Assembly: GCF_000227685.2 (NCBI RefSeq)
Contig: NZ_CP007029.1
Span: 1,090,501 to 1,154,500, forward strand
Direction: 5' to 3'
Source: Thioalkalivibrio paradoxus ARh 1
GTDB lineage: Bacteria > Pseudomonadota > Gammaproteobacteria > Ectothiorhodospirales > Ectothiorhodospiraceae
DNA length: 64,000 nucleotides
Shown: piece after piece, positions 54,477-61,925 of the stretch
Layout of the letters: each line of letters starts with the position of its first letter
How positions within the stretch are numbered: the first letter of the stretch is position 1
Translations under genes and position numbers: made by a program
The notes under the pieces: model-generated
Told to the model about the DNA's origin: nothing
The model's input: only the letters and a program-made list of their open reading frames with translations
Databases searched by the model: none

Positions 54477-55082
54477 TTGATCGTGCACCGAGTCGTCGCC
54501 GTTGTGCTGTTGGTCGCTGCGTCCTTTGCCTGTGCGAAGCCGATGCCGCCCGATCCGGGGCCGTCGCCGTTCGAATTCGAGCGGGTCAACGAGCTGGAGC
54601 GAGCGATGGTCGAGCGCATCTGGAGTCAGATCGACGACCCGGTGTCCCCGGAGAATGCGGTCGAGAACTATGCCCGCGCGCAGGCCTTTTTGCACACGCT
54701 GACGTCGCGACCCGCAACGCGCAGCGGTGCGGTGCATCCGGCGGTGCTGGGTCGGGGGCCGGTAACGTCGCCACTGATGGAGCAGCGGCTCGGGCCGGCC
54801 TATACGACCGAGCTGTATCAGCGGGCGCTGGCCTGGCGCGAGCGCAACAAGCCCGCGCTGATGGAACGCCTGCAGCTCAGCGAGCGCGAGGTCGACCGGG
54901 TGTTGAACGGGGCTTTCCGGGTCGGGGATCCCTGGGAGTACGCGGTGATCGCCTGGGGTAGCCCCAACCGCGTGAACCGCGACCCCGCCCGGTCCGGGGC
55001 GGGTCTGGAGCTGCTTTATGCCAACGGCAAACTGCGGCGGGTGCTCGTGGCCGACGGCGTGGTCGCCCGCGTCGTGGACTGA
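54477..55082 (+). CDS. Lipoprotein of unknown function
   Basis: 201 residues from a TTG at 54477 that follows AAGGAG at 5 bases; a GTG at 54483 is the alternative. The signal sequence HRVVAVVLLVAASFAC ends in a lipobox-like ASFAC, so the protein is probably lipid-anchored. The mature part is helical (FEFERVNELERAMVERIW; LMERLQLSEREVDRVLNG), then has a short strand-rich end (YAVIAWGSPNRV, LELLYANGKLRRVLVADGVV) that resembles SmpA/BamE-like small lipoprotein domains. No family is assigned with certainty. Confidence 0.65.
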   Translation: MIVHRVVAVVLLVAASFACAKPMPPDPGPSPFEFERVNELERAMVERIWSQIDDPVSPENAVENYARAQAFLHTLTSRPATRSGAVHPAVLGRGPVTSPLMEQRLGPAYTTELYQRALAWRERNKPALMERLQLSEREVDRVLNGAFRVGDPWEYAVIAWGSPNRVNRDPARSGAGLELLYANGKLRRVLVADGVVARVVD

Positions 55083-55208
55083 ACTCCCGAGCCGGACGCA
55101 CACCGGCTTCCGCGACTGGGCTGCGTCCTAGATCAGCGACAGCTGCCCGTTACGGTTGCTGAGCGCGCCGCGTCTCGGCAGTGGACCGGGAGGACGAACC
55201 ATGGTCGT

Positions 55209-57473
55209 TCAGAGCGCGATGCGCACCGGCTCGGCGACCGAGCCGCGCGCCTCGATGGCGCCGATCACCGCGGCGGCCGGGTAGCCCAGGCGGCGCAGTT
55301 CGTCGACACAGGCGGCAGCGCGCTCGGCCGGCACGCCGGCGAGCAGGCCGCCGGCGGTCTGCGGGTCGAACAGCAGCGGAAAATGCGGGTGCTTCGCCGC
55401 CCGTTCCAGGTCGGCGACGCCGCGCCGCAGGCGCAGGTTCTGCGGCTGCAGCGACGACACGATGCCGGCGGCCACGGTCTCGCCGGCCCCGTCCAGCAGC
55501 GGCACAGCGCCGACCTCCAGCACCGCGTCGACGTTGGAGGCGCGGGTCATCTCCAGCAGGTGACCGAGCAGCCCGAACCCGGTCACGTCGGTGCAGGCGG
55601 TGGCGCCGAAGCGCCGCAGGCAGTCTCCCGCCTGCTGGTTGCTGACGCACATCGACGCGATCGCATCGCTGATCCAGCGGCCCTTGGCCTTGCCGCGCAT
55701 GTCGGCCGCGAACAGCGTGCCGGTGCCCAGCGGTTTCGTCAGCACCAACGCGTCGCCGGCCTGCAGCCCGCCCTTGCGCCAGATCGCATCCGGGTCGACC
55801 AGTCCGTTCACCGTCAGGCCGAAGGCGAGTTCTGCGCCCTCGCTGGAATGCCCGCCGGCGAGGACCGCTCCGGCCGGTTCGAGCACCGCCAGTGCGCCGG
55901 CCAGCAGTTCGTACAGCGCCTCCTCGACCACGCGTTCGCGCCCGTAGGGCACGGTTGCGATCGCCAGCGCCGACTGCGCCTCGGCGCCCATCGCGAACAG
56001 GTCGCCGAGGGCGTGGTTGGCCGCAATCCGGCCGAAGGTGTAGCTGTCGTCGATGAACGCCCGGAAGTAGTCGACACTCTGCACCAGCAACCGACCCTCC
56101 GGCACCGAGAGTACGGTTGCGTCGTCCGGTGCGTCGATGCCGAGGACGACGTCGTCTCGACGGGTCACCGGCAGGCGCTGCATCACCCGGGTCAGCACGG
56201 TGCTGCCGACTTTCGCCCCACAGCCGCCGCAGCGCATCGCCAGCGTCGAGAGTTCCCGGATGGCCTGTTCGTCCGCGACACCCGAGGCCAGTTCAGGGCC
56301 TTTTGTTTCATCCATTTGTGGAAGGTTGTTATAGCGCTCCATGAAGCGACGGTCGATCCGGTCTTTCAGTCGCCAGAGCCATGCCCCTTCCATCGACCAG
56401 GCGCCGCGCGACGCTACCGCGTAACGGTCGCCGGTGCTGATCAGCCCGAGGAAACGACGCTGCGCGCGGTAGGGACGCAGCGGCCGTCCGGTGGCGGCAC
56501 GGCGCAGGTTGTCGGTCAGGACCGGCCCCTGACGGACCGCGAAGACGCCCGACTTCGGGCGGGGATCGGGCAGCGTGGCGACATCGCCGGCGGCGAACAC
56601 GCCGGGATGCGACAGCGACTGCAGCCGATCGTCGACCCGGATGAAGCCGGCCGCGTCGACCGCCAGCCCGGACTCGCGCGGCCAGGCCGGCGCAGAGGCC
56701 GAGGTCACCCACAGCACCGCGTCGGCGTTCACCTCCGGTCGACCGTCCGCCCGCACCGTTCCCTCGCGGACCTCGACCACGGTGTGCCCGGTGAGCACGC
56801 GGATGCCGCGCTCGCCGAGCACCCGCTGGAAACGGCGGCGCACACCCGGGCTGTGCGTCGGCAGGATCTCGGGGCCCTGGGTCAGCAGCAGGTATTCCAG
56901 GCGGTTCGGGTCGTCGCCGTGCTCGGCCAATAGGCGGCGCAGCCGGTACCGGGTCGCGAGGGCAAGCTCGACGCCGCCTGCGCCACCACCGACCACCGCA
57001 ACGCGGAACCGGCCCTGGCTCGCGGCGACACGATCGATCAGGCGCTCCCAGCCTTCGAGGAACCGATCGATCGGCTTCACCGGCAGCGTGTGTTCCGCGG
57101 CGCCGGGCACCTGCATCGTGCCCGGCCGGGAGCCCGTGTTGATCGACAGCAGGTCGAAGGCGACCGGAGGCCGACCGGCGACCCGGACGCTGCGCTGTTC
57201 CAGGTCCAGCGCTTCCACCTCGCCGTGGTAGAGCCGGGCGCCGGCGAAGCGGGCCAGCGGCCCGAGGTCGATGTGGCACTCGTCGAAGTCGTAGTGGCCG
57301 GCGACGTAGCCCGGGAGCATGCCGGAATAGGGCGTGTGGATGTCCCGAGTGATCAGCGTCAGGCGCAGGCCGGGCAGCGGCCGCATGCCGAAGCGGCGCA
57401 GCACCGCGACATGCGAGTGGCCACCGCCGACGAGCACCAGATCTTTCGCGACGGGGGCGGACGAAGTCTGCAT
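55209..57473 (-). CDS. selD: FAD-dependent oxidoreductase-SelD fusion (selenophosphate synthase)
   Basis: 754 residues. The first 385 form an FAD/NAD(P)-type oxidoreductase of the NDH-2/SQR kind (LVLVGGGHSHVAVLRRF; VAVVGGGAGGVELAL; VFAAGDVATL). From about 405 on it is SelD, which makes selenophosphate from selenide and ATP: MRCGGCGAKVGS carries the likely catalytic Cys418 and Lys421, followed by VLGIDAPDDATVL, QSVDYFRAFIDD, AGGHSSEGAELAFG and TDVTGFGLLGHL. The active site uses Cys, not selenocysteine. The ATG shares a base with the egtD stop, so the gene is the last of a senA-egtD-selD operon. The oxidoreductase part may supply reduced selenium; that is an inference. Confidence 0.92.
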   Translation of the reverse strand: MQTSSAPVAKDLVLVGGGHSHVAVLRRFGMRPLPGLRLTLITRDIHTPYSGMLPGYVAGHYDFDECHIDLGPLARFAGARLYHGEVEALDLEQRSVRVAGRPPVAFDLLSINTGSRPGTMQVPGAAEHTLPVKPIDRFLEGWERLIDRVAASQGRFRVAVVGGGAGGVELALATRYRLRRLLAEHGDDPNRLEYLLLTQGPEILPTHSPGVRRRFQRVLGERGIRVLTGHTVVEVREGTVRADGRPEVNADAVLWVTSASAPAWPRESGLAVDAAGFIRVDDRLQSLSHPGVFAAGDVATLPDPRPKSGVFAVRQGPVLTDNLRRAATGRPLRPYRAQRRFLGLISTGDRYAVASRGAWSMEGAWLWRLKDRIDRRFMERYNNLPQMDETKGPELASGVADEQAIRELSTLAMRCGGCGAKVGSTVLTRVMQRLPVTRRDDVVLGIDAPDDATVLSVPEGRLLVQSVDYFRAFIDDSYTFGRIAANHALGDLFAMGAEAQSALAIATVPYGRERVVEEALYELLAGALAVLEPAGAVLAGGHSSEGAELAFGLTVNGLVDPDAIWRKGGLQAGDALVLTKPLGTGTLFAADMRGKAKGRWISDAIASMCVSNQQAGDCLRRFGATACTDVTGFGLLGHLLEMTRASNVDAVLEVGAVPLLDGAGETVAAGIVSSLQPQNLRLRRGVADLERAAKHPHFPLLFDPQTAGGLLAGVPAERAAACVDELRRLGYPAAAVIGAIEARGSVAEPVRIAL

Positions 57474-58438
57474 CAGGAACCCTCCACCGCGAGGAGTTGC
57501 ACGCTGAACAGCGCGTCGGGATCGAGCCAGACCGCGTCGGGCCGGAACCCGGCTCGACAGGCCAGCGCCTGGAACTCGTCGACGCGGTATTTGTAGGAAT
57601 TCTCGGTGTGAATGGTCTCGCCGGCGTCGAACTCGAAGCGCTCCCCGGCCAGCTGCACGGCCTGCGGCCGGACGCTGGCCAGGTGCATCTCGACGCGTCC
57701 GTGTTCCGCGTTGTAACGAACCTGGTGTCGCCAGGCCTGCAGGTCGAAGTCTGCCCCGAGTTCCCGGTTGATCCGTCGCAGCAGGTTCAGGTTGAATGCC
57801 GCGGTCACGCCGTCGGCGTCGTCGTAGGCGGCCTCGAGCCGCTCCGGATCCTTCTTCAGGTCGACGCCGATCAGCAGGTATCCGCCCGGGCCCACCAGTT
57901 CAGCCACGGTGGTCAGAAACGCAACTGCGTCGTCGGGGGTGAAGTTGCCGATGCTCGAACCCGGGAAAAACGCGACCCGGACCCCGGTAGGGGTGTTCGG
58001 CGGCAGCTCGAGCAGGCGCGTGAAGTCGGTACACGCCGCGTGGACCTCGAGCCAGGGATACTCGGCCGCGACCTGTTCGGCCGCGACCCACAGATGATCC
58101 CGGGAGATGTCCATCGGCACGTAGGCGCAGGGCTGCAGCCCATCGAACAGCAGGCGGGCTTTCGCTGGAGTGGCCCCGCCAGGCTCGACCAGCAGTGCGC
58201 CGGTCCCGACGCGCGCGGCGATCTCGGGGGCATAGGTTTGCAGGATGCCCATCTCGGTCCGGGTCGGGTAATACTCGGGCAGCCGGGTGATTGCGTCGAA
58301 CAGGTGCGAACCCTCGGCGTCGTAGAAGAACTTCGGCGGAATGCAGCGCGGTTTCTGCCGCAGCCCGGCCAGCACCTCGGCGGCGAAATCGGCGGGCGTG
58401 GGATGGAGGTCGTGATACTGGATCCGTGGCGTCGGCAC
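57473..58438 (-). CDS. egtD: L-histidine N-alpha-methyltransferase EgtD
   Basis: 321 residues from a GTG at 58438, with GAGGAG nine bases upstream; the longer in-frame reading overlaps the preceding gene. EgtD trimethylates histidine to hercynine with SAM. Diagnostic parts are PPKFFYDAEGSHLFDAITRLPEYYPTRTE at the N-terminus, the SAM-binding region VEPGGATPAKARLL, and FFPGSSIGNFTPDDAVAFL; the C-terminus has ENSYKYRVDEFQAL. Hercynine is the shared precursor of ergothioneine and selenoneine. The gene is 49 bp after the senA-like gene and overlaps the selD fusion. Confidence 0.95.
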   Translation of the reverse strand: MPTPRIQYHDLHPTPADFAAEVLAGLRQKPRCIPPKFFYDAEGSHLFDAITRLPEYYPTRTEMGILQTYAPEIAARVGTGALLVEPGGATPAKARLLFDGLQPCAYVPMDISRDHLWVAAEQVAAEYPWLEVHAACTDFTRLLELPPNTPTGVRVAFFPGSSIGNFTPDDAVAFLTTVAELVGPGGYLLIGVDLKKDPERLEAAYDDADGVTAAFNLNLLRRINRELGADFDLQAWRHQVRYNAEHGRVEMHLASVRPQAVQLAGERFEFDAGETIHTENSYKYRVDEFQALACRAGFRPDAVWLDPDALFSVQLLAVEGS

Positions 58439-58487
58439 CTGGCGGTTCTCCTCGTTCGCGGCAGGACGGGACGGTTTTGCGGAACGG

Positions 58488-59792
58488 TCAGCGATCGGCC
58501 GCACAGGTCCGGAACCCGGCGAACACGTCGTTGCGCTCCGGACCATAGTAGTTGCGCCAGGTATTGCGGATCAGCCTCGATCGGGTCGCCCAGGCGCCTC
58601 CGCGCAGCACCCGGGTCTGGCCGAACAGCGGCTGCGAATAGTCCTGGTACATATCCGGGGTGAAGCCGGGGTAGGGCGCGAAGACGGTGTCGGTCCATTC
58701 CCAGGCGTTTCCGAGCATCTGGCGACAACCGAAGGCGCTGTCGCCAGCAGGCAGCGCGCCCACGTCGAGCGTATCCAGCGCGCCGCCGTCCAGGTTCGCT
58801 CTCGAAGGATCGGGTGCAGCCTCGCCCCAGGGGTACCGCCGCTTTACCGGAGCCAGCTGCGTGCCGTTTGCAGCCGGTTCGCCGGCAGCCGCGACCTCCC
58901 ACTCGAGTTCCGTCGGCAGCCGCCGGCCCGCCCAGCGGCACCAGGCCCTCGCTTCGTACCAGCTGACGTGGATCACCGCGGCATCGGGGGGCAGCGGCTC
59001 CCAGCGGTCGAAGCGTCGCCGTTCCCAACCGTCGCTGCCTGGCCGCCAGTAGACCGGATGCTCGAGGCCCGTCGCCTCGCGCCAGCGCCAGCCGTCCTCG
59101 TCCCAGTACTCGCGCCTGCGGTATCCGCCATCCTCGACGAAGGCGGCGAACTCGGCATTGCTGACCGCCGCGCGGGCAATGCGGAACGGCGCCACCTCCA
59201 TCGGGTGCGCCCATTTCTCGTTGTCGAACGCGAACGCGCCGTCCGGGGATGCGCCGAGCTGGAACAGCCCGCCCGGTATCTCGGCGTCGCCGGCGAGTCC
59301 CCCGGCGGTCCACGCGCGATCGCGCGGGCGTCCGATCTCCGGTGGCGGGTAGGCCAACGTCTGGCGGGTGTAGGTGAAAGCCTCGGTGTGCATGTCCTCG
59401 TGGAACACCGCGTACTGCACCAGGTAGTCGCGCCGGGGCTCGGTGCCGCCCTGCTCGAGGTGGGTACAGACCCTCCGCTGCACGTCGTCCATGTAGGCGA
59501 GGGTGTCATCGAGTGTGGGCAATGGCAGATCCCAGCGGCTGTCGTGCGCAATGCGGATCGAATCGAACAGCCGGTCGACGTCCGGCCGCGTGGGAGCCTC
59601 TCCGAAGTGGTGGCGCAGTACCCAATACTCGTGAAAATAGGCGGCATGGCCGATTTCCCACCGCAGGGGGTTCACGACCGGCAGTCGCGGGCCCATCAGC
59701 TGCCGGTCGTCCAGGCCGCGGATCAGCGTCAGCGTCCGGGCCCGGGCGTCTTTGATCTGCGCGATCAGTTGCTGTGGGTCGGGCAGGTCCAT
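58488..59792 (-). CDS. senA: SenA/EgtB-type enzyme, probable selenoneine synthase
   Basis: 434 residues from the ATG at 59792. The N-terminal DinB-like domain holds the iron ligands H49 (WEIGHAAYFHEYW) and H131/H135 (VFHEDMHTEAF). The C-terminal formylglycine-generating-enzyme-like domain carries HVSWYEARAWCRWAGRRLPTELEWE and GNAWEWTDTVFAPYPGF, then RVLRGGAWATRSRLIRNTWRNYY. EgtB and SenA share this plan; EgtB joins a thiol and SenA a selenosugar to hercynine. The call as SenA rests on the neighbours (SenB-type transferase, SelD fusion, EgtD). No EgtA or EgtC is present here, which argues against the ergothioneine route. Confidence 0.85.
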   Translation of the reverse strand: MDLPDPQQLIAQIKDARARTLTLIRGLDDRQLMGPRLPVVNPLRWEIGHAAYFHEYWVLRHHFGEAPTRPDVDRLFDSIRIAHDSRWDLPLPTLDDTLAYMDDVQRRVCTHLEQGGTEPRRDYLVQYAVFHEDMHTEAFTYTRQTLAYPPPEIGRPRDRAWTAGGLAGDAEIPGGLFQLGASPDGAFAFDNEKWAHPMEVAPFRIARAAVSNAEFAAFVEDGGYRRREYWDEDGWRWREATGLEHPVYWRPGSDGWERRRFDRWEPLPPDAAVIHVSWYEARAWCRWAGRRLPTELEWEVAAAGEPAANGTQLAPVKRRYPWGEAAPDPSRANLDGGALDTLDVGALPAGDSAFGCRQMLGNAWEWTDTVFAPYPGFTPDMYQDYSQPLFGQTRVLRGGAWATRSRLIRNTWRNYYGPERNDVFAGFRTCAADR

Positions 59793-59965
59793 CGCATATC
59801 TCGTGGGGTTCGGTCGAAGGGCGCGACGGTTGGGCACGGCCCGAGGGGTCGCTGTCGTGTTTCCTGCGTCGGCACAACCTACGGGGTATCGTTGCCGATG
59901 GCCAGCATTGTAGAGTCGGCGCGCACGTTCCGGTACGCCGAAATATCGCGCATCATGCGTCCCAG
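59793..59965. promoter_or_regulatory. Divergent promoter region of the selenoneine locus
   Basis: This 173-bp gap separates the minus-strand senA-egtD-selD operon from the plus-strand senB gene. Shared control of the two halves is likely, but I see no confident promoter or operator sequence. Confidence 0.45.
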
Positions 59966-60919
59966 ATGCGAATACACTTGATCACGCCGTCTCCGTCGCC
60001 GTCCCGGGGAGGGAACTGGACGACCGCGGCACGCTGGGCCCGGATCCTGCGAGGGCTTGGGCACCGCGTGCGGGTCGCGCGAACCTACCGGGGGGAGGCG
60101 GCGGACCTGATGGTGGCCCTGCACGCATGGCGCAGCGCGGATTGGATCGCGGGTTTCGCCGATCGGCATCCTTCTCGCCCGCTGGTGGTGGCTCTGACCG
60201 GGACCGACGCCTACCGCTTCATCCACAGCCACCCGGAGCCGACGCTGCGCTCGCTGGAGCTGGCCGACCGCCTGGTCGGGCTGCACGACCGGATCGGGGA
60301 CGTGCTGCCGCCCGAGCAGATCGGCAAGCTGCGGGTCATTTACCAGTCGGCTCCGCCGGGACTGCCGCGCGATCCGTACCGGCGTGGGTTTCGCGTCTGC
60401 GTGGCCGGGCACCTGCGCGAGGAGAAGGATCCGCTGCGCCCGGCCCTGGCGCTGCGCGGGCTGCCCACCGCCAGCCGCCTGCGCGTCGACCATTACGGCG
60501 GCGCACACAGCCCCGACTGGGCCGACGCGGCCCGTGCCGAGATGGCCGCCAACCCGCGCTACCGCTGGCACGGGGAGGTACCGCATTATCGCTTGCGGCG
60601 GGTGTTCGCCCGGTCCCAGCTGCTGGTGTTGCCCTCGCGCATGGAGGGCGGGGCGAACGTGATCTCGGAAGCGGTGATGGCAGGCCTGCCGGTGATCGCT
60701 TCGCGCATCGCCGGGTCTGTCGGGCTGCTGGGAGACGATCATCCCGGCTACTACCCGGTGGCCGACACCGGGGCGCTGCGCGCACTATTGCTGCGCGCGG
60801 AGTCGGACAAGCAGTTCCTCCAAATGCTGGAACGGGCCTGCGCCGCGTGCCGGCCGCGGTTCAAGCCCCGGCGTGAACACCGTGCCTGGGAGGCACTGCT
60901 GCGTGACATAGGCTGTTAG
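59966..60919 (+). CDS. senB: SenB-type glycosyltransferase, probable selenosugar synthase
   Basis: 317 residues from the ATG at 59966; the longer in-frame reading runs antisense through the senA start. It is a GT-B glycosyltransferase: ITPSPSPSRGGNWTTAARWARILRGLGHRV at the N-terminus, LVVALTGTDAYRFI, VCVAGHLREEKDPLRPALALRGLP and the donor-site segment LVLPSRMEGGANVISEAVMAGLPVIASRIAGSVGLLG. The GGNW-TA start and TGTD motif are those of the family that includes SenB, which joins selenophosphate to a UDP-sugar. Its stop codon is supplied by the first bases of a REP-like unit. Confidence 0.88.
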   Translation: MRIHLITPSPSPSRGGNWTTAARWARILRGLGHRVRVARTYRGEAADLMVALHAWRSADWIAGFADRHPSRPLVVALTGTDAYRFIHSHPEPTLRSLELADRLVGLHDRIGDVLPPEQIGKLRVIYQSAPPGLPRDPYRRGFRVCVAGHLREEKDPLRPALALRGLPTASRLRVDHYGGAHSPDWADAARAEMAANPRYRWHGEVPHYRLRRVFARSQLLVLPSRMEGGANVISEAVMAGLPVIASRIAGSVGLLGDDHPGYYPVADTGALRALLLRAESDKQFLQMLERACAACRPRFKPRREHRAWEALLRDIGC

Positions 60920-61110
60920 CGTGAAACTCACGGCCTGTCTCGTGTCCCGGGCAACCCGTAGGGCGGAAGAGCGCAGCGTCATCCGCCGCTCGGCATTCGG
61001 GCCTCCCCGGCGCCTGCGGCAATCCGGGCGCCGGATGGCGGATGACGGCCTTCGGCCTTTTCCGCCCTACGCGTCTTTCATCATCGGGGGGTGGCCGCTG
61101 GTCATGACAG
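60916..61110. repeat. REP-like palindromic unit, copy C
   Basis: A 195-bp unit nearly identical to copy A (12821-13012), with few substitutions and a short indel, 48 kb away. It begins at the stop codon of the senB gene (TTAG). Arms are GTAGGGCGGAAGAGCGCAGC / GTCATCCGCC and GGCGGATGACGGCC / CTTTTCCGCCCTAC-type. Confidence 0.85.
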
Positions 61111-61174
61111 TTAGCGTGAAAGTCACGGCCTGTCTCGTGTCCCGGGCGATCCGTAGGGCGGAAAAGCGCAGCGT
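61111..61174. repeat. REP-like palindromic unit, copy D (truncated)
   Basis: Directly follows copy C in the same orientation. The first 64 bp match (TTAGCGTGAAAGTCACGG up to GGAAAAGCGCAGCGTC), then the sequence diverges and the second arm is absent. A GGCTCG-AA-CGAGCC hairpin follows at 61182-61195. Confidence 0.8.
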
Positions 61175-61223
61175 CTTCGGGGGCTCGAACGAGCCAACAA
61201 AGAGCGCGTGCCGCGACGACCGC

Positions 61224-61925
61224 TCAGGGCTTGCGCAGCAGGTCGGCCCGATTCGGGTTGCGGAACTCGGCGACGCCATCCTCGCCCGCGTGCTGCATGA
61301 ACCGGTCGCGGATGGTCGCATACAGCACTTCGTCGATCGCGAATTCGGTGTGGGTCGCGCCGAGGACGCGGTCTTCGAACTCCTCGAACCCCTGGAACCG
61401 GCTGATGCTATCGAAGAAGATCTCGTCCTCCAGGATGAACAGGCCTTCGTCGACGGCGGTCTGCAATGCCTCGAAAGCCGCGATTCGAACATCACGTTCA
61501 TCATGAAAAAGTTTTAGAATATCATTGAATTCACCGGCATAAACAGGTTCCGAGAAATAGGCGATGCCGCCGGGTCTCAGCACGCGGTGGATCTCCGCGA
61601 GGCCCTGGCGCAGTCTTGGTTGCGGAACGTGATGCAACGACTTCAGCATGATCACCGCGTCGACCGAGTCATCGGCTTCGGCGATCGCCTCGATGCCGCC
61701 CAGCCGGAACGAGGCGCGGGGCAGGTCGCTGATCCGGAGGTTCTTCTCGTGCTGAGCCCGATCGACTTCGGTGGCGATGATCTCCGCTACCGGCAACTGC
61801 TCGGCGATGCGGCGCGTGGTCTCGGCCCTGCCGCAACCCAGTTCCAGCAGGCGCGCTCCGGCCACCGGGAGGCGTTCGGCGATCAGTTCCAGATCCGACA
61901 GGACCGGCAGCGGTCCGGATTTCAT
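61224..61925 (-). CDS. SAM-dependent methyltransferase (class I)
   Basis: 233 residues. The Rossmann-type SAM-binding motifs are ARLLELGCGRAETTRRIAEQ, then IIATEVDRAQHEKNL, VDAVIMLKSLHHVPQPRLRQGLAEIHRVLRPGG and AYFSEPVYAGEFND. This is the methyltransferase-11 type; the substrate is not evident. Part of the gene (about 61500-61545) is unusually AT-rich for the window, which hints at foreign origin or relaxed constraint there. A GGAG lies about 15 bases before the ATG. Nearness to the selenoneine locus is suggestive, but the genes are separated by REP units and are convergent. Confidence 0.85.
   Translation of the reverse strand: MKSGPLPVLSDLELIAERLPVAGARLLELGCGRAETTRRIAEQLPVAEIIATEVDRAQHEKNLRISDLPRASFRLGGIEAIAEADDSVDAVIMLKSLHHVPQPRLRQGLAEIHRVLRPGGIAYFSEPVYAGEFNDILKLFHDERDVRIAAFEALQTAVDEGLFILEDEIFFDSISRFQGFEEFEDRVLGATHTEFAIDEVLYATIRDRFMQHAGEDGVAEFRNPNRADLLRKP

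Follow-up and report, generated by a model that had tools for sequence, protein, structure and literature searches.

A predicted selenoneine gene cluster with egtD and an Ndh-SelD fusion in Thioalkalivibrio paradoxus ARh 1

Four genes at 55209–60919 of a 64,000-nucleotide stretch of the Thioalkalivibrio paradoxus ARh 1 genome (contig NZ_CP007029.1, positions 1,090,501 to 1,154,500; the window) are very probably best explained as a selenoneine (sen) gene cluster. Gene families were called by NCBIfam profile search against each model's own cut-off, and all four genes exceed it. Transcription on the minus strand runs from SenA, the predicted selenoneine synthase of the EgtB superfamily (58488–59792; NF041186, 523.5 bits, cut-off 420), through EgtD, the histidine-specific methyltransferase for hercynine (57473–58438; TIGR03438, 399.1 bits, cut-off 290.9), to an Ndh-SelD fusion of 754 residues (55209–57473). 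The fusion consists of an N-terminal flavin/nicotinamide adenine dinucleotide (FAD/NAD) oxidoreductase domain (TIGR03169, 511.6 bits, cut-off 310) and a C-terminal selenide,water dikinase (TIGR00476, 303.7 bits, cut-off 125), and would take the role of SenC. Divergent from these genes, on the plus strand, lies the predicted selenosugar synthase SenB (59966–60919; TIGR04348, 448.8 bits, cut-off 300). A first-pass annotation made from the sequence had located and named the four genes in the same way, and its assignment to selenoneine is supported by the family scores, the SenA tree and residues, and the SenB residues. It had also spoken of a senA-egtD-selD fusion; Ndh and SelD are indeed fused, whereas SenA and EgtD are separate polypeptides.

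Third-codon-position G+C is 0.84–0.88 across the four genes, typical of coding sequence in a G+C-rich genome. The likely start codons are ATG at 59792 for SenA, at 59966 for SenB and at 57473 for Ndh-SelD; for EgtD the likely start is a GTG at 58438 with GAGGAG upstream, preferred over the ATG at 58546 of the open reading frame. The EgtD stop codon overlaps the Ndh-SelD start by one base. SenA and SenB are separated by a divergent region of 173 bp (59793–59965), where both promoters presumably lie. A scan of 55000–61300 for promoters and terminators gave no more than was found in shuffles, and the sigma-70 consensus gave no site.

The sen pathway of SenC, SenB and SenA has been described step by step (PMC9814287), and the steps also appear in the available portions of two further papers (PMC10702425, PMC10903977). 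A corresponding pathway can be predicted for the window from the gene identity, order, conservation, active-site residues and copy numbers observed here. EgtD would trimethylate histidine to hercynine, and Ndh-SelD would produce selenophosphate, with the Ndh domain presumably supplying reduced selenium. SenB would transfer the selenium of selenophosphate to the sugar of a uridine diphosphate sugar, giving a selenosugar. SenA would then join the selenosugar with hercynine to form a selenoxide, whose breakdown and reduction would yield selenoneine. A distant EgtB probably draws on the same hercynine, and a separate SelD near selA, selB and the selenocysteine tRNA (tRNA-Sec) would serve selenoproteins.

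Active-site positions of SenA are given in what we take to be the EgtB numbering (51, 87, 90, 134, 137, 138, 377 and 414–416), located on the EgtB chain 4x8b as chain number minus one. The window SenA has His at 51, 134 and 138, together with His87, Arg90, Met137, Tyr377 and Asn-Tyr-Tyr at 414–416. SenA 8k5i, of the Variovorax type, has the same letters at 51, 134, 138, 87, 137 and 377 and NFF at 414–416, whereas EgtB 4x8b, EgtB 6qki and the EgtB of T. paradoxus itself have Arg87 and Gln137. Related loci were surveyed as the best 80 of 244 confirmed SenA places, many of them cut by contig ends. His87 occurs in 75 of these 80 loci (Gln in 5) and Met137 in all 80. Met137 is not diagnostic by itself, as it also occurs in two of four EgtB-like rows of another type (L127–L130), all of which have Lys87. 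At position 414, 63 loci have Asn and 17 have Thr. The loci with Thr at this substrate-site position include most of L018–L029, and many of them also carry egtD, so that the use of hercynine is not clearly affected. On the C-terminal signature TIGR04373 (cut-off 71) the window SenA scores 93.4 bits and 8k5i 93.6, and the window SenA does not reach the EgtB model TIGR03440 (346 bits against a cut-off of 360).

The first-pass annotation had proposed a phylogenetic placement of the EgtB-like protein among EgtB and SenA, and it falls outside EgtB in both of the SenA trees. The earlier tree, built on the nearest 80 relatives, placed 8k5i and 4x8b on long branches. A second tree, of 60 rows, brought in closer relatives both of 8k5i and of OvsA, the ovoselenol enzyme, and was kept small by including 28 of the 80 related SenA. 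In this quick tree, with a midpoint root and support from the Shimodaira–Hasegawa-like approximate likelihood ratio test only, all SenA and OvsA rows cluster together (99), with the 13 EgtB rows outside. The window SenA lies inside a supported group (97), and SenA of the 8k5i kind forms a separate branch (92, not counted as supported). Judged by its sequence, the window SenA is a selenium-type enzyme set apart from sulfur EgtB.

SenB residues had likewise been marked for checking at first pass. The window protein keeps N20, T23, H58, R61, T83, T85, R155, K158, E231 and E239, ten residues reported as important in the accessible part of a SenB study (PMC10891094). V157 is replaced by Glu and H235 by Asn, which are the commonest letters at these positions (70 and 77 of 84 aligned relatives, respectively). 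In the same part of that study, mutants at H235 are still partly active, and the changes tested do not include V157 to Glu (PMC10891094). A SenB stretch of 200 residues was not found in 12 of 96 loci, five belonging to the 80 (L023, L042, L047, L050 and L076) and seven to the other 16 (L161, L167, L169, L171, L173, L174 and L175). The last four are the OvsA loci, none of which has such a stretch within its 16 kb.

The Ndh and SelD domains of the fusion share one open frame. In related loci the two domains are neighbours on the plus strand in 41 cases, and in all 41 the frame between them is open. Aligned to the solved SelD 3u0o, the SelD half has CGGC and keeps the Cys and Lys of the GCGCK stretch, which we take to be the catalytic residues. 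The fusion does not reach the model TIGR04369, 'fusion_not_SelD' (474.3 against 700 bits). A second, stand-alone SelD lies at 2536839 of the genome, 36% identical to the fused one over 328 positions, and its 20-kb region also holds selA (583.7 bits), selB (465.5 bits) and tRNA-Sec. The fused SelD therefore looks dedicated to selenoneine, and the two SelD genes seem to be split by use. Between tRNA-Sec and the stand-alone selD are genes of an ATP-binding cassette transporter (L178:10779–14736), which may import selenium; its binding protein scores below the cut-off of the putative selenate transporter model TIGR04553 (195.4 against 250 bits) and above that of a phosphate/phosphite/phosphonate model (148.5 against 112.05). 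Ndh-SelD fusions were known by 2008, and the Ndh part has been proposed to act for SelD by reducing a selenium compound (PMC2432076). How frequent the fusions are in the sea, and their CxxC motif, have been described (PMC2398784), and Ndh-SelD is by far the commonest SelD fusion (PMC4561486), as stated in the available parts of these papers.

Read from one codon after the preferred start, EgtD aligns to solved EgtD with 245.7 bits. The T. paradoxus genome is a single contig of 3,756,729 bases, and the EgtD of the sen locus is its only full copy, the other match having 22.6 bits over 65 positions. A second gene of the EgtB family lies at 1272858–1274063, 120 kb from the sen locus; its TIGR03440 score is 552.4 bits, and its nearest matches are 8qf6, 6qki and 6o6l, at about 490 bits. 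No egtD was found among the open frames in 4.2 kb around this EgtB, nor a full copy elsewhere but in the sen locus. Because this EgtB is without an EgtD of its own and the sen EgtD is the sole full copy, one EgtD probably serves both the selenium arm (SenA) and the sulfur arm (the distant EgtB). Short of import or some other way of making it, the sen-locus EgtD would be the only source of hercynine for the latter. The sen locus had been thought independent of any ergothioneine pathway elsewhere in the genome. Given the distant EgtB and the sole EgtD, any dependence is instead that of the sulfur arm on the sen locus. The locus is self-contained in that every step to selenoneine is encoded there, but not in the sense that the genome is free of an ergothioneine enzyme. 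A methyltransferase-like gene (L003:769–1470) lies directly downstream of the distant EgtB on the same strand, with no NCBIfam match at 1e-20.

The arrangement in the window recurs. Of the 80 loci, 75 have SenB, 45 have Ndh, 45 have SelD and 29 have EgtD within 6 kb of SenA; in the 38 loci with 6 kb on both flanks, SenB is present in all 38, Ndh with SelD in 25, EgtD in 16 and all four genes in 12. The exact order and strands of the window are found in 10 of the 80. SenB is on the strand of SenA in 13 of the 80, seven of these then having EgtD on that strand; same-strand loci (L034, L038, L048, L058, L068, L069, L084 and others) include Acidobacteriota, Armatimonadota and Methylomirabilota.

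Copy numbers were examined in an even draw of 397 Pseudomonadota genomes, T. paradoxus (G000) included. A SenA-model match over 420 bits occurs in 13, and three of them (G205, G116 and G179) have only the OvsA type, which leaves ten genomes with true SenA. In all ten a single EgtD exceeds the cut-off. Seven genomes (G000, G375, G250, G358, G440, G406 and G065) have it no more than 6 kb from SenA, G286 has it at 9.3 kb, and in G180 and G330 it is located elsewhere; the contig of G330 breaks off 0.3 kb beyond SenA. An EgtB-like match of 334–393 bits occurs in eight of the ten, a count based on the SenA model, TIGR03440 having been run on G000 only; G375 and G406 gave none at 1e-90, a threshold at which weaker EgtB kinds would not show. 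EgtD is beside the EgtB-like gene in G286, G180, G330 and G440. The usual combination in this sample is therefore a single EgtD with both SenA and an EgtB-like gene, the position of EgtD being variable. Among the OvsA-only genomes, EgtD is present in two and absent from G179. The first-pass annotation had singled out egtD within the locus and the fusion of SelD to an oxidoreductase as special; the layout of the 10 loci, EgtD near SenA in 7 of 10 genomes and the published fusions (PMC2432076, PMC2398784 and PMC4561486, as far as their available parts go) speak otherwise.

The Ndh-SelD fusion was also considered as a marker of selenoneine and rejected. TIGR03169 is over its cut-off in 55 of the 397 genomes, and in 38 the match lies in an open frame of at least 700 residues, a proxy for the fusion that counts the Ndh half only. 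The proxy is positive in five of the ten true-SenA genomes (G000, G358, G375, G406 and G440) and in all three OvsA-only genomes; 26 of the 38 positive genomes belong to one family (f64), which shows no SenA-model match at 1e-90. A looser count, with frames of at least 550 residues and the OvsA genomes included, gave 9 of 13 against 31 of 384, and a Fisher test on it was not relied on.

Among 47 genomes of the window's own family searched for SenA and SenB, SenA is over the cut-off in 10 and SenB in 12, the two extras (G027 and G042) having partial SenA matches. In the 12 genomes with SenB, EgtD is part of the sen locus in three (G000, G013 and G014), at most 1 kb from an EgtB-like gene in two (G042 and G045), on a contig other than that of SenA or SenB in six, all fragmented assemblies, and not found in one (G031, 58% complete). 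SenA is followed directly by Ndh in three of the six fragmented assemblies (G035, G037 and G038). The three genomes with EgtD in the sen locus each also have an EgtB elsewhere that groups with 6qki. G014 and the locus L011, each on 32,796 bases, are probably one contig, so the two surveys overlap. In a quick EgtD tree of uncertain root, one group (96) holds the sen-locus EgtDs of the window, G013, G014/L011 and Lamprocystis (L015) with eight Thioalkalivibrio EgtDs located away from sen. The eight form one subgroup (99), and two of them come from genomes (G029 and G034, 79–80% complete) with no SenA over the cut-off. This grouping fits an old link between sen and egtD that was lost in some relatives rather than a recruitment in T. 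paradoxus.

Several results weigh against the selenoneine assignment or parts of it. The raw scores of the window SenA are 337.6 with OvsA 8ux5, 329.1 with OvsA 8u41, 290.9 with EgtB 4x8b and 242.1 with SenA 8k5i, so raw similarity does not settle the enzyme class. OvsA (five rows, 100) leaves an unresolved fork inside the very group (97) that holds the window SenA, and specificity has therefore probably changed there at least once. OvsA also passes NF041186, and the SenA model alone is no proof of the product. The close Thioalkalivibrio relatives L007, L008 and L010 have no EgtD between SenA and Ndh-SelD or elsewhere in the 4.5–10 kb covered. Finally, the argument for shared hercynine is weakened by gaps in the sulfur arm, as judged by the models: EgtE is not found in the genome (best score 97.4 against 400), and the only EgtC match over the cut-off, at 2140185 (238.2 against 218.65), has no EgtB, EgtD or SenA match near it.

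One paper, in its available part, lists selenoneine alongside ovoselenol as a pair of selenometabolites (PMC13188914). The alternative that the raw scores suggest, an ovoselenol-type locus whose enzyme is an OvsA making an ovothiol-like histidine selenol, is nevertheless improbable. OvsA uses histidine. Although OvsA is the best solved-structure match of the window SenA and nests within its group, the OvsA branch itself excludes the window protein. OvsA 8u41 and its four orthologues (L171, L173, L174 and L175, 53–62% identical to OvsA) have Gln414 and Ala415, against Asn414 and Tyr415 in the window. The orthologues suggest that Gln-Ala is the native OvsA state and 8ux5 an altered form. OvsA misses the TIGR04373 signature (44.6 bits), which the window SenA meets. 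The window has SenB and EgtD, and the four OvsA loci are without a SenB stretch. A class I methyltransferase gene at 61224–61925, convergent to senB, was considered as an OvsA partner and rejected, since it reaches no NCBIfam cut-off and has a relative in only 1 of the 80 SenA loci. That relative (L029:3749–4405) is 52% identical and 2.5 kb from senB, with none in the other 79 loci, and the place of the gene beside senB may be chance or reflect a rare partner. Ovoselenol is thus disfavoured by the active-site residues, the signature domain and the neighbouring SenB and EgtD.

The comparison also indicates that NF041186 collects more than SenA. OvsA (428.1 bits) and the four orthologues (427–441 bits) pass its cut-off of 420, so that annotation can give the ovoselenol enzyme the name SenA. 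In the 397 genomes, 17 matches are over the cut-off, four of them OvsA and three SenA paralogues with altered active sites, and SenA counts made with this model run high. The three (L161, L167 and L169, from G330, G250 and G358) are second SenA-like copies with 423–478 bits, have no SenB nearby and form their own branch (99). The iron-binding His138 is Arg in two of them, and 414–416 are changed in all three; possibly they are SenA paralogues with another role. TIGR04373 accepts L167 (76.9 against 71) though it rejects the OvsA chain. OvsA appears to have descended from the SenA group of the window.

A truly self-contained and unusual locus, to which egtD was added so that selenoneine needs no ergothioneine pathway, would account for four steps within 5.7 kb, but it is very improbable in view of the EgtB without neighbouring EgtD elsewhere in the genome, of EgtD within 6 kb of SenA in 29 of the 80 loci (contig-cut ones counted) and of the EgtD group (96, root not fixed), which fits EgtD leaving sen in relatives. 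An ergothioneine locus with a sulfur-specific EgtB-like enzyme beside unrelated SelD-like and transferase genes could call on EgtD as an ergothioneine enzyme and on a TIGR03440 score just below the cut-off, and is hardly credible when a better EgtB (552 bits) exists elsewhere in the genome, His87 and Met137 replace the Arg and Gln of 4x8b, 6qki and that EgtB, and SenB is next to SenA in all 38 loci with enough flanking sequence.

The selenoneine cluster may have a wider role, which we put forward tentatively and consider rather unlikely as a whole. The sen locus would be a hub for hercynine, its EgtD feeding both SenA and the distant EgtB, and Ndh-SelD would be a dedicated enzyme that reduces a selenium compound and converts it to selenophosphate, so that in a sulfur-oxidising cell the supply for selenoneine is kept separate from that for selenoproteins. 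If so, selenium status would steer the total ergothioneine capacity. T. paradoxus offers a testable case of one EgtD for two chalcogen pathways and two SelD for two selenium uses. The pathway described in our study is known and its arrangement recurs elsewhere; the new points are modest: the probable sharing of EgtD, the apparent split of SelD, the apparent descent of OvsA and the over-collection by the SenA model. No description of egtD in sen clusters was found in the literature surveyed by title and start of abstract, a survey that did not include the original selenoneine and ovoselenol papers, and the literature searched gave no paper naming both selenoneine and Thioalkalivibrio. The locus adds a sen cluster in a closed genome, within the SenA group where OvsA seems to originate, with an EgtB elsewhere for comparison.

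Compared with known systems, EgtB of the 6qki/6o6l type shares the superfamily and the iron site with the window SenA, and the genome's own enzyme of that type is the separate gene at 1272858–1274063. OvsA (8u41, 8u42 and 8ux5) shares the selenium-type letters at 87 and 137 and a common ancestry. Known Ndh-SelD fusions have the same domain order, an N-terminal Ndh and a C-terminal SelD with the CxxC Cys; the fusion of the window differs in being placed in a sen operon, in a genome with a second, stand-alone SelD. The Variovorax paradoxus sen cluster (senA, senB and senC) has SenA, SenB and a SelD-type selenophosphate synthase in common with the window. The metal ligands and most of the substrate-site residues of SenA are alike in the two, and the catalytic residues of SenB are kept. 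The window differs from Variovorax in that its SenA falls outside the 8k5i branch, its SelD is fused to Ndh, its operon includes egtD, and its SenB has Glu at V157 and Asn at H235.

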